Assembly: GCA_905221605.1 (NCBI GenBank)
Contig: CAJNDS010000020.1
Coordinates: 62,001 to 126,000, forward strand
Source of the DNA: Symbiodinium natans
Taxonomy: Eukaryota > Sar > Dinophyceae > Suessiales > Symbiodiniaceae
Length of the DNA: 64,000 nt
Direction of reading: 5' to 3'
The notes under the pieces were generated by a model. That model searched no databases. It saw nothing but the letters and a program-made list of their open reading frames with translations, and had not been told where the DNA came from. Each line of letters starts with the position of its first letter. Within the stretch, counting starts at the first letter, position 1. This document shows, one piece after another, positions 38,404 through 63,347 of this stretch. The position numbers and the translations under genes are program-made.

Positions 38404-38515
38404 GTCTGGCACGTGGCGAAGTCCCCACTCGCACTTTCGACCCCTGTGCCTGACGGCTGGCAGCCGCCCCACTACCTTGAGGAGGCAGCCCTGCATGGTG
38501 TCGGGAATGAATCCC
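38404..38515 (+). CDS. Exon island, WW-like fragment
   Basis: Lies between a GACTCGGCAG acceptor and a GTAAAT donor, and is fully open: V-W-H-V-A-K-S-P-L-A-L, then V-P-D-G-W-Q-P-P-H-Y-L-E-E-A-A. The P-x-G-W segment recalls the start of a WW domain, but the second Trp is not in this exon. Telomere-like repeats lie on both sides. Confidence 0.45.
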
Positions 38516-38740
38516 GTAAATTCCTAGACCCTAAACCCTAAACCCTCAACCCTATCCCCTAAACCCTAAACCCAGAAACCACAAACCCTGAGGGTTTAAG
38601 TTTAGGGTTTGGGCTGGTGTAGTTCAAGCTCTGGGCTTGTGACCAAATCGAGGGTTCAGGGTATGGTTTCAAGGAGACTCAAGGAACCCTGGCCACGGGA
38701 AAAACACTGCTCGGATGCCCTCAATCGAGCATCAAGAAAC

Positions 38741-38834
38741 CCTAAACCCTAAACCACAAAACCCTAAACCCTAAACCCTAAACCCTAAACCCTAAACCCT
38801 AAACCCTAAACCCTAAACCCTAAACCCTAAACCG
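38741..38834. repeat. CCCTAAA array
   Basis: About 13 units. A further array of CCCTAAA then CCCTGAA units is at 39186-39265. Confidence 0.9.
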
Positions 38835-39492
38835 CAGTTTTTTTTTGGAATGATAGGAGCTCTGTACCGTCATGTTCATCTTTGCAGCCCTCAATGTGTA
38901 AGTCCCCAAGCTCCCTAGTAAGAACCGCTAAGTAGGCCGGCCCTAAACTCAAATCCGGAATCGTAAGGCCTAAGCCCCAAACCCTAAACCCGAAAACTAT
39001 ATAAACCCCAAACCCGATATCCTCAATCCTAAGCTCTAATCACTGTAAACCCCGAACCCGAATGAAGCTCTGAACCCAAAGCCTGAGTTAGACACAGCCT
39101 GGAAGCCGCTTCCAGGGGCTTTCATTTTTGCAACCCTTTCGAAACCTCTGGCAACAAAGTTTCTGAGCCCCAGCTCCTCCCCTAACCCCTAAACCCTAAA
39201 CCCTAAACCCTAAACCCTAAACCCTGAACCCTGAACCCTGAACCCTGAACCCTGAACCCTAAACCCAAAGCCTCTTGCAGGGTTTAGGGTTTGGGCTTCA
39301 TGTTTAGGGCGAAGATTTAGGAAGCAAGCCCAACACCCAAAGGGTTTTCTGGGGCATGTGCTGACTTCCTCTTCCCCCCCCAAAAAAAAGAAAAAACAAA
39401 CATTAAAAAAACAATAAAACATGAAGCCAGAGACCCACAACAGACGAACAACTGAAACCTAAGTCCTACGCCCGGAAGACCCAGCAACGCAG

Positions 39493-39571
39493 CTTAACGC
39501 GCCAAGGCAAGCTATGGGGCTTGGCTGAGTCGCCTAGCACAGCGCCTGCACAAGGCACCCTCCACCCGAAA
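39493..39571 (+). CDS. Exon island, weak
   Basis: After CAACGCAG the frame reads L-T-R-Q-G-K-L-W-G-L-A-E-S-P-S-T-A-P-A-Q. It runs into AAACCCGAAACCC repeats. No clear donor. Confidence 0.3.
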
Positions 39572-40175
39572 CCCAAAACCCGAAACCCGAAACCCGAAAC
39601 CCTAAACCCTAAACCCTAAACCAGAACTTAGGGGTGTGCAGAGGTTCGTAGGGGTTTAGGGCCTAGGGTGGGTTTCGGCTTGGGGTGTGCCATATCTCAT
39701 GAAGTCTGGGGGATGTCTTGGCTCTTAGAAGGATTTGGGGTTTTAGGGTTTAGGGTTTAGGGTTTAGGGTTTATGGTTTAGTGTTCCCGAAGCTTCAATG
39801 GCTAGCTTAAGAGGCTTTATTGTTTTAGGCCTCATGTGTTTTGCCAGATGTTGTTATTGCGATATCCGAACAAGGTACAAGAACACTGATGTGGACTCAC
39901 CCTAAAACCCCAGGCCAGAAGCCCTCTGCCTTCGGCTCAGAGCTTGAGTCACCTCACTGTTCGGAACGGCAAAGCTCTGAAACCCAAAAACCCTTGAAAC
40001 TCGAAGTCCTTGGCATTCTCGGCCCCAACCCTCCTTGTCCTAGCAATTTACAGACCAAAAAAACACTTCCAGGGGCCCAGGGAACACCCCAAGCCCAAAA
40101 ACCCTGCACTTTCGAAGTGCAGCTTAAACAAGGGCCCATTTCAAAGGGGAGCTCTAGCCTGCACTTTGTGAGAGC

Positions 40176-40651
40176 ATGGCGCGCGGCCGTGTGCTGGGTG
40201 GTCTGCTCTTGCTCTGCGCCGTGTGTGCTCTGCTTGGTCCATCTTTTCAACCCTCAGAGGGCGGAAGGAGCGAGGCGCGAGCGCCCTTCATCGACGCCTC
40301 CCAGATCTTCGACAAGCTGGTTTGGGTACTCTTTCGGCATGTGCTGTGCGCAGGTGGTATGATCACGGAGACTCTGGAGGCGCTTCCAAAGAAGGGTCTG
40401 CTCTCTGCACTGAAGGCCGGATTAGAGGCGCGCAGAGACTGCCTGAAGGTAATTTCCTGAGTGAGTTGTGCAATGCTGCAATGCGACCCAACGCTTGCCA
40501 CTTGGCTGCCTTCAGCTTGGCTGTTCGCCTGCAGCGGCTCACCCTTTTTTATTCTTCTTAGACTTTTTTGTCAAAACGTGGCAAGGAGTGTTTCAGGCAA
40601 GCCCTTCCCACAACCCGGGCATCGCGATCTTCGCAGAAGACCGTGCGATGA
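40176..40651 (+). CDS. Small protein with signal peptide or anchor, two exons
   Basis: ATG at 40176. Exon 1 runs to 40448 (91 codons) with a GTAATT donor. Exon 2 is 40562-40651 after CTTCTTAG, in phase, ending at TGA; total 120 residues. The N-terminus M-A-R-G-R-V-L-G-G-L-L-L-L-C-A-V-C-A-L-L-G is a typical signal peptide or anchor. It is followed by P-F-I-D-A-S-Q-I-F-D-K-L-V-W-V-L-F-R-H and an amphipathic helix (E-A-L-P-K-K-G-L-L-S-A-L-K-A-G-L). Exon 2 in this phase is basic (L-S-K-R-G-K-E-C-F-R). Another frame of exon 2 is also open, so the C-terminus is less sure. The inferred location is the secretory route or a plastid. No family recognised. Telomere-like repeats lie on both sides but not inside the gene. 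Confidence 0.5.
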
Positions 40652-41129
40652 TGATGATACAGGTCCTGAAAAACCACTGAGTTTCACCCCGCTTCTCGGA
40701 ACAGACTACCCTGAACCCTTTATGTAACCCCTCGACCCATGTGCACCGCCCGCCCAACAGTGCCTTGCGTGAGACGCAGAGGGCGTGCGCAAAATCGTGT
40801 TTTGTCGGGTGGGCTTCGGGGTAATCGGCTATCAGGTCCAGGCTTGCACCTCGCCCAGAGGTACCGTTTTGCCTCTCTTTTGTTTGTGCTCAAGGTTCCC
40901 TTAAGGTTTAGGGTTTAGGGTTTAGGGTTTAGGGTTTAGGGTTTAGGGTAGTTACCCGTATTGGATTCTGGTGACTGGGCTGCTTACTTCTGGAGTGGGG
41001 TTTCGGGTCTTGGGGATGTCGGGTTGAAGGCTTGTCGTTCCTGTGGCCGCCAGTCCCACTCATCAACGCAGAACAACGCCTACCAAAGCTCCCCCCCCCA
41101 CATACCCACATCCAAGTTTGTTTTAGGTT

Positions 41130-41400
41130 TTAGGTTTTAGGTTTTAGGGTTTAGGGTTTAGGGTTTAGGGTTTCCCAAGCACTTGACTCCCCTCCCGATC
41201 CCCACCTAACTGGCGCGCTTGGCCACAAGCTTCTGGGTCGAGATGGGACTTTGCCGTCACCGGAATCCACTTTTACGCCCAAAACACCGGATTAGAGCAC
41301 AAGGGGCCTTAATGATTAAAATAGGGTTTTGGGGGTGATTATTGGGGTTTAGGGTTTAGGGTCTAGGGTTTAGGGATTAGAGTTTAGGGTTCAAATTATT
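41130..41400. repeat. TTTAGGG patches
   Basis: Arrays at 41142-41175 and 41345-41395 flank unique DNA. An array of about eight units lies just upstream at 40903-40948. No supported exon in 40660-41400. Confidence 0.7.
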
Positions 41401-41409
41401 GTTTAATTA

Positions 41410-62132: not shown

Positions 62133-62147
62133 GGCTTTAAAGTTTAG

Positions 62148-62213
62148 GAGTTTAGGAGTTTAGGAGTTTAGGAGTTTAGGAGTTTAGGAGTTTAGGAGTT
62201 TAGGAGTTTAGGG
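62148..62213. repeat. Variant telomere array TTTAGGAG
   Basis: Eight units of the 8-bp TTTAGGAG, then standard TTTAGGG. Confidence 0.95.
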
Positions 62214-62760
62214 TTTAGGGTTTAGGGGTTTTATGGGGCTTTGTGGGGGTTAAGGCGTTTAGGGCTTATGGCTTCGGGGTTCGGGTTTCAGGGTTTAGGG
62301 GCTTAGGGGCTTAGGGGCTTAGGGATTGAAGTTGGTGTTCAGGGGCGTGGTGGTTTACAGCTGAAGCGGCTTGGGTTTAGGTTGGAGGGCGAACTTGCAG
62401 TCACGGACTCGGCCTTCAGCACATATTTAGGGTTTAGGGTTTAGGGTTTGGGGTTCAGGGATGACCTAGGACCCGGAGTAGGCCCTGATTTCCTTTGGGT
62501 TGGGTTTCCCTTAAAATCCCCTCAAAGCCAAGAAGGGTACCCTGTTTATTCCTAAGTTACTTCTGGGTCTAGTGACAGGCGCAGACTCGTGGTGCCCACA
62601 CCCATTGGCAGTAGATTTTTTTTGGACGTATACCCCAAACAACCACAAACCCCAACGGAATGGAGCTCGGAGTCGTAAACCCTGCAACCGTCAGCCCCCC
62701 TAAACTCTAAACTAAACCCTAGAAACCCTACGCCCTGCAACCTTAAGAGCTCTTCTGGCC
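62214..62760. other. Telomere-like patches and dispersed repeat
   Basis: TTTAGGG/GCTTAGGG units at 62214-62330 and 62427-62455. Dispersed repeat with GGGTTTCCCTTAAAATCCCC at 62500-62550. Possible tiny terminal exon at 62405-62430 after ACTTGCAG, not counted. Confidence 0.5.
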
Positions 62761-62835
62761 CTAAACCCTAAACACTAAACCCTAAACCCTAAACCCTAAA
62801 CCCTAAACCCTAAACCCTAAACCCTAAACCCTACA
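62760..62835. repeat. CCCTAAA array
   Basis: About ten units before the exon at 62856. Confidence 0.9.
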
Positions 62836-62855
62836 ACCTCGAGCTCTTTTGGCAG

Positions 62856-62960
62856 GCCTCCGGCTGCATCAACCTCACTGTCTACCGCGTCACAAGCACT
62901 CCGTGGCCCATGCCACCACAAGGACAGCGACCCCAGCCATCCCTGAAACCAACCCGATAG
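62856..62960 (+). CDS. Terminal exon island
   Basis: CTCTTTTGGCAG acceptor, then A-S-G-C-I-N-L-T-V-Y-R-V-T-S-T-P-W-P-M-P and a Pro/Gln-rich end to TAG at 62958. A TTTAGGG array (62961-63028) begins at the stop codon. Confidence 0.45.
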   Translation, partial: ASGCINLTVYRVTSTPWPMPPQGQRPQPSLKPTR

Positions 62961-63030
62961 TTTAGGGTTTAGGGTTTAGGGTTTAGGGTTTAGGGTTTAG
63001 GTTTTAGGGTTTAGGGTTTAGGGTTTAAGG
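62961..63030. repeat. TTTAGGG array
   Basis: About ten units overlapping the stop of the preceding exon island. Confidence 0.9.
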
Positions 63031-63253
63031 TAAACCCTAAACTCTGCATTGTAAACCCGAAACCTTAATTCCGCACATAAGTCCCCAAGGACCTTCAAGT
63101 GCTCCTTCTTCCGGAGAAGCCCTGAACTCTAAATCCCAACTCCTAAACCCTATAAACCCTAGAAACCCTAAACCCTGAACCCTGAACCCTAAACCCTAAA
63201 CCCCAAACCCCAAACCCTAAACCCCAAGCCCTCGCCAAGATCCCTTTAAACAG

Positions 63254-63347
63254 GCAGCTTAATCCCGGCGAAGCCCCGCGAAGTCTGCGCGGTGCGCCTT
63301 CCTTTCGTGTGCCGCTCGCGGGGCGGCCCAGCACTTTCTTCTGTTAA
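63254..63347 (+). CDS. Terminal exon island
   Basis: After TTAAACAG: Q-L-N-P-G-E-A-P-R-S-L-R-G-A-P-S-F-R-V-P to a stop at 63345. GC-rich, unlike its flanks. Confidence 0.35.

Follow-up and report, generated by a model that had tools for sequence, protein, structure and literature searches.

Telomere-type arrays in predicted introns of short-exon genes of Symbiodinium natans and their orientation relative to splicing

We analyzed a 64,000-nt stretch of the genome of the dinoflagellate Symbiodinium natans (hereafter the window, in whose positions coordinates are given unless another contig or locus is named), which corresponds to positions 62001-126000 of a 254,257-bp contig (C20, CAJNDS010000020.1) in an assembly of 759,417,921 bases and 2,543 contigs (GCA_905221605.1). 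Our subject is 38404-63347, where short islands of open reading frame alternate with tandem arrays of the telomere-type heptamers TTTAGGG and CCCTAAA. The explanation that we consider fairly likely is that this region holds one or more plus-strand genes of short exons, that their spliceosomal introns are loaded with telomere-type arrays, and that splicing filters the orientation of those arrays. Judged from the sequence, the region would be part of one or several such plus-strand genes, and homology supports the exon reading in part of it. With its array-loaded introns the region resembles about half of the loci that we sampled elsewhere in the genome, which are array-rich, and as judged by protein similarity the arrays also sit in introns of conserved genes.

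An earlier note on this DNA, made from the letters alone, had proposed that the islands are exons joined by TTTAGGG/CCCTAAA introns, and one of its junctions, 54179|54616, is supported by a predicted protein that crosses it. A protein search with the later islands (336 aa) returned one protein, P0005, the predicted S. microadriaticum protein AK812_SmicGene18842, whose residues 2-19 match 54126-54179 and whose residues 20-38 continue without a gap at 54616-54672 (27 of 37 positions identical when joined; E 2.7e-5 for the piece 54613-54672). The junction in P0005 falls exactly at 54179|54616, such that 54180-54615 is missing from this predicted homologue between ..ASE and VLRPP.., and TTTAGGG- and CCCTAAA-type DNA abounds in the omitted 436 nt. 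This similarity supports a plus-strand intron of 436 nt at 54180-54615, which has GT..CAG edges and carries TTTAGGG blocks first and then a perfect CCCTAAA array reaching to 4 nt before the next exon (block order GGC). Its predicted flanking exons are TSALAPLKLRSSDDTVASE (54123-54179, plus strand, donor GTGACC) and VLRPPSPPMTHQKTAPPTL.. (54616-54721, plus strand), the latter without a homologue beyond the residues given.

Further matches were found when four joined islands (170 aa) were used as query, and these comprised four proteins, namely P0001, which is the window's own exon 1, P0002, the Symbiodinium sp. KB8 protein P0003, and P0004, the predicted S. microadriaticum protein AK812_SmicGene18843. 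Residues 19-46 of P0004 match 43949-44032 (22 of 27 identical; tblastn E 1.7e-10) and residues 61-73 match 46894-46932 (12 of 13 identical; alignment E 6.7e-5, with a tail that enters the array), with order and strand preserved between the two. P0004 and P0005 bear consecutive gene numbers (18843/18842) and are each listed with a contig of 597,938 bp. The first of these matches defines a plus-strand exon VAPLLLALRLDFAAQRHCTAEQTCPEPQ with approximate edges at 43952-44037, matched by P0003 as well, which has TTTAGGG upstream and CCCTAAA downstream. The second falls in a plus-strand exon ending ..VFCDRWTLRPTSDLLKGEKC (46866-46929, 5' edge uncertain), which has CCCTAAA upstream and TTTAGGG downstream; P0004 continues here with ..LLKGEKC and a GTGAGA donor stands at 46930, so that the boundary previously placed at 46918 is probably 11 nt early. 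Four plus-strand islands thereby have S. microadriaticum homologues, which upholds that part of the exon proposal, whereas most islands have none.

The putative first coding exon (40176-40448, plus strand) has an open frame from an ATG with a signal-peptide-like start to a CTGAAG/GTAATT donor, is 70% identical to P0002, and has a 70% match on another contig of the same genome (C2233; E 5.8e-26); P0002 and the C2233 place may be one and the same sequence. A genome search with the islands gave 20 rows, 18 of them self-matches on the window's contig and two the C2233 paralogue, and a weak C2233 match (40%, E 0.65) also accompanies a probable second exon, ASPSHNPGIAIFAEDRAMMMIQ (40597-40662, plus strand, AG/GT edges, phase 0). 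No homologue was found for the island groups at 57637-57976 and 59855-60192, a first protein search with a 565-aa query of islands gave no match, and Pfam and PDB searches with joined window islands gave none either. An exostosin glycosyltransferase was considered as the window gene and rejected, with 0 of 38 profile matches on C20 (39 candidates scored) and no Pfam match for the islands.

Sequence features of the islands were then weighed against shuffled and reversed controls. The four islands of the first group (54123-55543) do stand where they had been described, each preceded by AG and the first three followed by GT. Beyond the two exons already described, this group contains a proposed plus-strand intron with CCCTAAA-type blocks (54722-55213, the junction of the earlier note), a candidate plus-strand exon at 55214-55270, judged by its edges and frame, that has GTGAGT and then a TTTAGGG-type block downstream of it, and a candidate last exon VTWTQALNLVVVPSGAQLNILWHVEYSENPELQ.. 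(55383-55543, plus strand) whose frame runs to a stop and which has no homologue. The homologues obtained reach neither 54721|55214 nor 55270|55383. Codon phase does carry across this group as one open frame, but such chaining is what chance gives, since 228 of 300 dinucleotide-shuffled sets chain too, and for the tested cut of the second group all 300 of 300 did so. For groups 1 and 2, grouping islands by codon phase alone is unsupported. Similarly, the claim that nearly all islands read on the plus strand holds for every homology-supported island and not for codon score, which gave 105 plus and 110 minus segments (58.5 ± 6.7 in locally resampled sequence). Ab initio exon chaining was rejected as evidence and its score left unused, as the reversed controls scored higher (224 + 210 vs 161 + 118). 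Because shuffles chain, reversed sequence scores higher and codon segments are equal on the two strands, sequence features by themselves are indecisive on which islands are exons.

The extent of telomere-type DNA in the region was confirmed, with perfect TTTAGGG/CCCTAAA heptamers covering 21.1% of 38404-63347 vs 4.3% of 1-38000, and with 96 merged array blocks (5,316 bp) in both orientations. The longest array row of the region among the 150 of 159 rows listed is at 53102-53477 (CTAAACC, 53 copies, Tandem Repeats Finder). Variant arrays stand beside normal heptamers, for instance TTTAGAGGG (9 nt) at 42596-42807 and TTTTTAGGG at 1660-2020 of another locus (L020). These are tandem telomere units away from chromosome ends, the window being internal to its contig, and a perfect array at 1-108 that we had considered as a chromosome end was wrongly so taken, because the window begins at position 62001 of C20. 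Genome-wide, exact (TTTAGGG)3 matches numbered 1,185,204 and 1,184,385 on the two strands, and the reversed control numbered 41 and 33. We sampled 33 loci (L012-L044; 160,509 readable bases), picked by contig number from contigs other than the window's, and found heptamer cover of at least 5% in 15, below 2% in 18 and between these values in none, the mean perfect-heptamer cover of sampled bases being 8.9%. The genome is split into array-rich and array-poor stretches, and the window itself shifts from 4% to 21%. The sample is somewhat array-poor, as it predicts 1.76 million (TTTAGGG)3 matches vs the 2.37 million found. One sampled locus (C400:100001-110000) has a GC content of 0.346 vs 0.48-0.59 in the other 32, and is an odd stretch or stems from another organism.

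Conserved genes elsewhere in this genome are built similarly. A search with the dynein motor domain (PF12774) gave 63 exon-level genome matches, four of which span all 327 positions in a single open frame, and other dynein genes have exons of ~60-100 nt distributed along as much as 13 kb. Dynein introns were read from pieces of eight genes (loci L054-L061) and differ in content, with many array blocks in C1971, C96 and C1812, one block each in C1844 and C1831, and zero in C1899, C1757 and C1986; two of these last genes, C1757 and C1986, have very short introns (~42-60 nt). At one intron position, ..YVTATQ/ALHL.., the gene on C1757 has ~50 nt without an array, and that on C1971 carries, at this codon boundary too, 1.2 kb of arrays. 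Another 12 introns, 10 of them with arrays, lie between marked exons of an ankyrin-repeat gene in L020 (Ank_2, E 7.1e-65 on 11 joined exon pieces). By eye, dynein intron edges can be read as GC..AG, GA..AG and GT..AG, several with some nucleotides of freedom, alongside GT..CAG in the window. Searches for the Cpn60 family gave six matches with zero array blocks at its four loci, and joined open pieces of four other array-rich loci (one strand each, some pieces omitted) had no Pfam match at E 0.01. Ankyrin patterns adjoining a TTTAGGG array occurred at only 4 distinct places, which is too few for use.

Together with the window intron these gave a set of 25 introns defined by homology (12 from the ankyrin gene, 12 from dynein genes and 1 in the window), 18 of them with an array block. 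Exon edges in the 25 were placed by eye, following the continuity of the protein, and many are good only to within several nucleotides. CCCTAAA is the closing block in 15 of the 18 array introns (shuffle p 0.0003), and TTTAGGG is the opening block in 13 (p 0.02). In all ten introns that carry both orientations TTTAGGG leads and CCCTAAA closes (sign test 0.002; 0 of 20,000 shuffles), an order that is new here, and the remaining eight of the 18 have a single orientation, five with CCCTAAA only and three with TTTAGGG only. Counted by bases in G-type (TTTAGGG) and C-type (CCCTAAA) heptamers, 5' halves of introns hold 1,258 and 547 and 3' halves 234 and 1,655, respectively. Seen from the exons outside the window, the nearest block is C-type upstream of 15 of 18 (p 0.008) and G-type downstream of 12 of 18 (p 0.24). 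Gaps between neighboring blocks differ with their flanks: outside the window, those running from a C-type to a G-type block (C..G) measure 109 nt vs 221 nt for the converse G..C gaps (n = 59, 61; p 4.5e-5), a contrast that shrinks when smaller blocks are used (109.5 vs 164 nt, other array-rich loci). GC content is 0.582 in C..G vs 0.529 in G..C gaps (n = 59, 49; window included), and coding-likeness in array-rich loci outside the window is z 0.92 vs 0.31 (n = 54, 54; one-sided p 0.023).

A strong effect at the acceptor with a weaker one at the donor fits a splicing filter. A TTTAGGG array offers a good 3' splice site (TTTAG/GG) once per heptamer, and CCCTAAA contains neither AG nor GT; we infer the filter from this resemblance of TTTAG/G to an acceptor. 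Arrays may enter or grow in either orientation, by telomerase-type addition, recombination or slippage, and splicing would then weed out those arrays that put TTTAGGG immediately upstream of an exon, the others being tolerated. In the transcript UUUAG/G would present a ready 3' splice site each 7 nt and be tolerated chiefly early in an intron, and CCCUAAA, without AG or GU, may extend right up to the true acceptor. A stronger version, which we hold to be possible and yet doubtful, is that telomere repeats serve as a splicing code in which CCCTAAA upstream and TTTAGGG downstream mark an exon. If so, the polarity (an AG-free, CTAAAC-rich stretch before the acceptor and G-runs after the donor) would let the spliceosome define short exons, and such definition would serve genes tens of kilobases long.

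Several observations weigh against exons in array-loaded, orientation-filtered introns. Ten of the 18 array introns come from one ankyrin gene and are non-independent, so that the p-values above are optimistic; three of the 18 (two dynein, one ankyrin) lack a final C-type block; and exon 43952-44037 breaks the polarity, its flanks being reversed. Inside the window the gap contrasts are slight, lengths being close with smaller blocks (C..G 110.5 vs G..C 130 nt) and coding scores alike (z 0.26 vs 0.27; p 0.28). A 978-nt intron in C1899 is array-free, although it may hide a missed exon (this array-free span is outside the 18), and a 1,079-nt intron in C1831 has only one G-type block. On the side of homology, P0003 uses another frame at the 46.9-kb island, the P0005 match to the window ends after residue 38 and that of P0004 after residue 73, and in the protein and genome searches islands beyond the homology-supported ones had no homologue; the higher scores that a simple gene finder gives to reversed controls than to the real strands count likewise.

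Other origins would also yield a TTTAGGG-then-CCCTAAA order. Telomere healing with refusion, whereby intron breaks were capped by telomerase on both sides and rejoined head to head, would give this order on both strands without any role for splicing, is compatible with one-sided introns (five C-type only, three G-type only), and has a parallel in mammalian telomere repeats that are reported to be inserted at break repair (PMC2246262, PMC7215372). Direct head-to-head junctions (≤20 nt), as telomere-telomere fusion would leave, are rare, however (4 of 104 G..C vs 2 of 101 C..G neighbors), which speaks against simple fusion; we regard healing as a serious rival, though an unlikely one. Somewhat further from expectation stands a working inverted repeat, in which the TTTAGGG part of the intron RNA pairs with its CCCTAAA part, the splice sites approach and the arrangement is selected. 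It requires the G..C order seen in ten of ten two-orientation introns, and introners of Amoebophrya are reported to carry inverted repeats that form hairpins and so bring exon boundaries together (PMC7789003), but with C..G gaps (109 nt) shorter than G..C gaps (221 nt) the exon would be looped out just as easily, and eight of 18 array introns have a single orientation (five C-type, three G-type).

The two remaining origins both strike us as very improbable. A mobile telomeric element, or introner, that created each array intron by inserting into an exon would account for the many short exons, and dinoflagellate introners are reported (review PMC11453091). At the one position compared, though, the close dynein relative on C1757 has an array-free intron, a paralogous one, which suggests that the intron predates the arrays, or else that C1757 lost them; judging from that position, arrays probably entered an already existing intron. 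Array length and order also vary among the introns read. The other takes the islands for unrelated relics that lie among interstitial telomere arrays, with no expressed gene, as the lack of homologues for most islands and the chance-like phase chaining would allow; set against it, the order of islands and a predicted splice are both matched by homologous predicted proteins, and exon 1 is conserved at 70%.

Additional plus-strand candidates complete the region. A probable exon VYLPRDVPKRLHVADLAQAGALWGTHKF directly 3' of a CCCTAAA block (42504-42589, 3' edge uncertain) is suggested by its codon score, its C..G gap and its edges and has no homologue, and a candidate exon DDEPGSYGTQAFA, also 3' of a CCCTAAA block (45658-45697), is proposed from its sequence, again with no homologue. 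Candidate exons in C..G gaps lie at 60940-61020 and 62058-62126 (codon score, gap list) and at 62856-62960, the last with a stop codon at its end and drawn from the gap list and an unvalidated chain model. Elsewhere in the window, long minus-strand open frames at 30177-33793, one with DUF6570 (5.3e-21), are presumably Helitron-like, and a minus-strand dual-specificity phosphatase match at 2538-3260 (33 bits) is slightly below the Pfam cut-off of 33.5. Long tandem repeats with units of 42, 61, 74 and 14 nt occupy 35329-37375 and 37512-37978 and are crossed by open frames, and a 399-bp direct duplication (49801-50199 / 50701-51096, 98.5% identical) adjoins (TG)n arrays. Directly upstream of the window an open piece had no Pfam match at 0.01, and we take it to resemble an RNA-virus polymerase motif. 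No Rfam family reached its gathering score within the 64-kb window, and ARAGORN (bacterial code) found zero tRNAs in it.

Marking the genome as that of a dinoflagellate, the 21-nt spliced leader, whose sequence is established and also printed in the excerpted text of PMC8045281, has 104 + 101 exact genome copies, and its reversed control 0; 244 putative spliced leaders are reported for S. natans in that same source, according to which full-length transcripts of this species were also generated. The excerpts of two papers on S. natans (PMC8045281 and PMC9087856) make no mention of telomeres, and telomere-filled introns are not described among the open-access literature matches listed. The picture is one of a 759-Mb algal genome in which about half of the sampled loci carry chromosome-cap repeats, introns of conserved genes included, and in which array orientation follows the direction of splicing. 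Two old questions become testable, namely the spread of telomere repeats inside chromosomes and the way in which dinoflagellates, in which non-GT donors occur, recognize short exons in very long genes. A further implication is that such genomes may be misread by repeat masking and by assays with telomere probes.

Among known systems, dinoflagellate chromosome ends carry TTTAGGG (PMC11453091, PMC7023079, PMC11508785), and Karenia cytogenetics finds this repeat sometimes inside chromosomes, rarely interstitial (PMC6395649). As in Karenia, TTTAGGG is internal to chromosomes here, but in contrast to the rarity reported there it amounts to 1.18 million (TTTAGGG)3 matches per strand. The arrays resemble the interstitial telomeric sequences of mammals and plants, as excerpted from PMC6410037 and PMC7215372, in being short tandem telomere units at non-terminal sites, and differ from them in that 8.9% of sampled bases are in heptamers, many intragenic, with a polarity relative to splicing. 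With the dinoflagellate introners outlined in PMC7789003 and PMC11453091 they share repeat introns, an inverted-repeat layout and non-canonical edges, whereas at the one position compared introns occur with and without arrays; the introns read showed no repeat family with fixed ends, and no systematic search for one was made. In Eimeria falciformis, AAACCCT/AGGGTTT is, with CAG, the most abundant simple repeat (6-14 units) and occurs in a segmental pattern that extends beyond telomeric regions, and 93% of the frame-incompatible repeats are found outside coding sequence (PMC4287421, in excerpt). Both are alveolates with segmental, not only telomeric, arrays of telomere-type heptamers, and S. 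natans has its own rich and poor loci (15 vs 18 of 33, as separate loci); what sets it apart is a 759-Mb dinoflagellate genome, arrays that fill introns between short exons and an orientation rule, no counterpart of which rule appears in the excerpted text of PMC4287421. On the published excerpts, the AAACCCT-rich genomes of Eimeria are the closest match to the array-loaded introns of S. natans.

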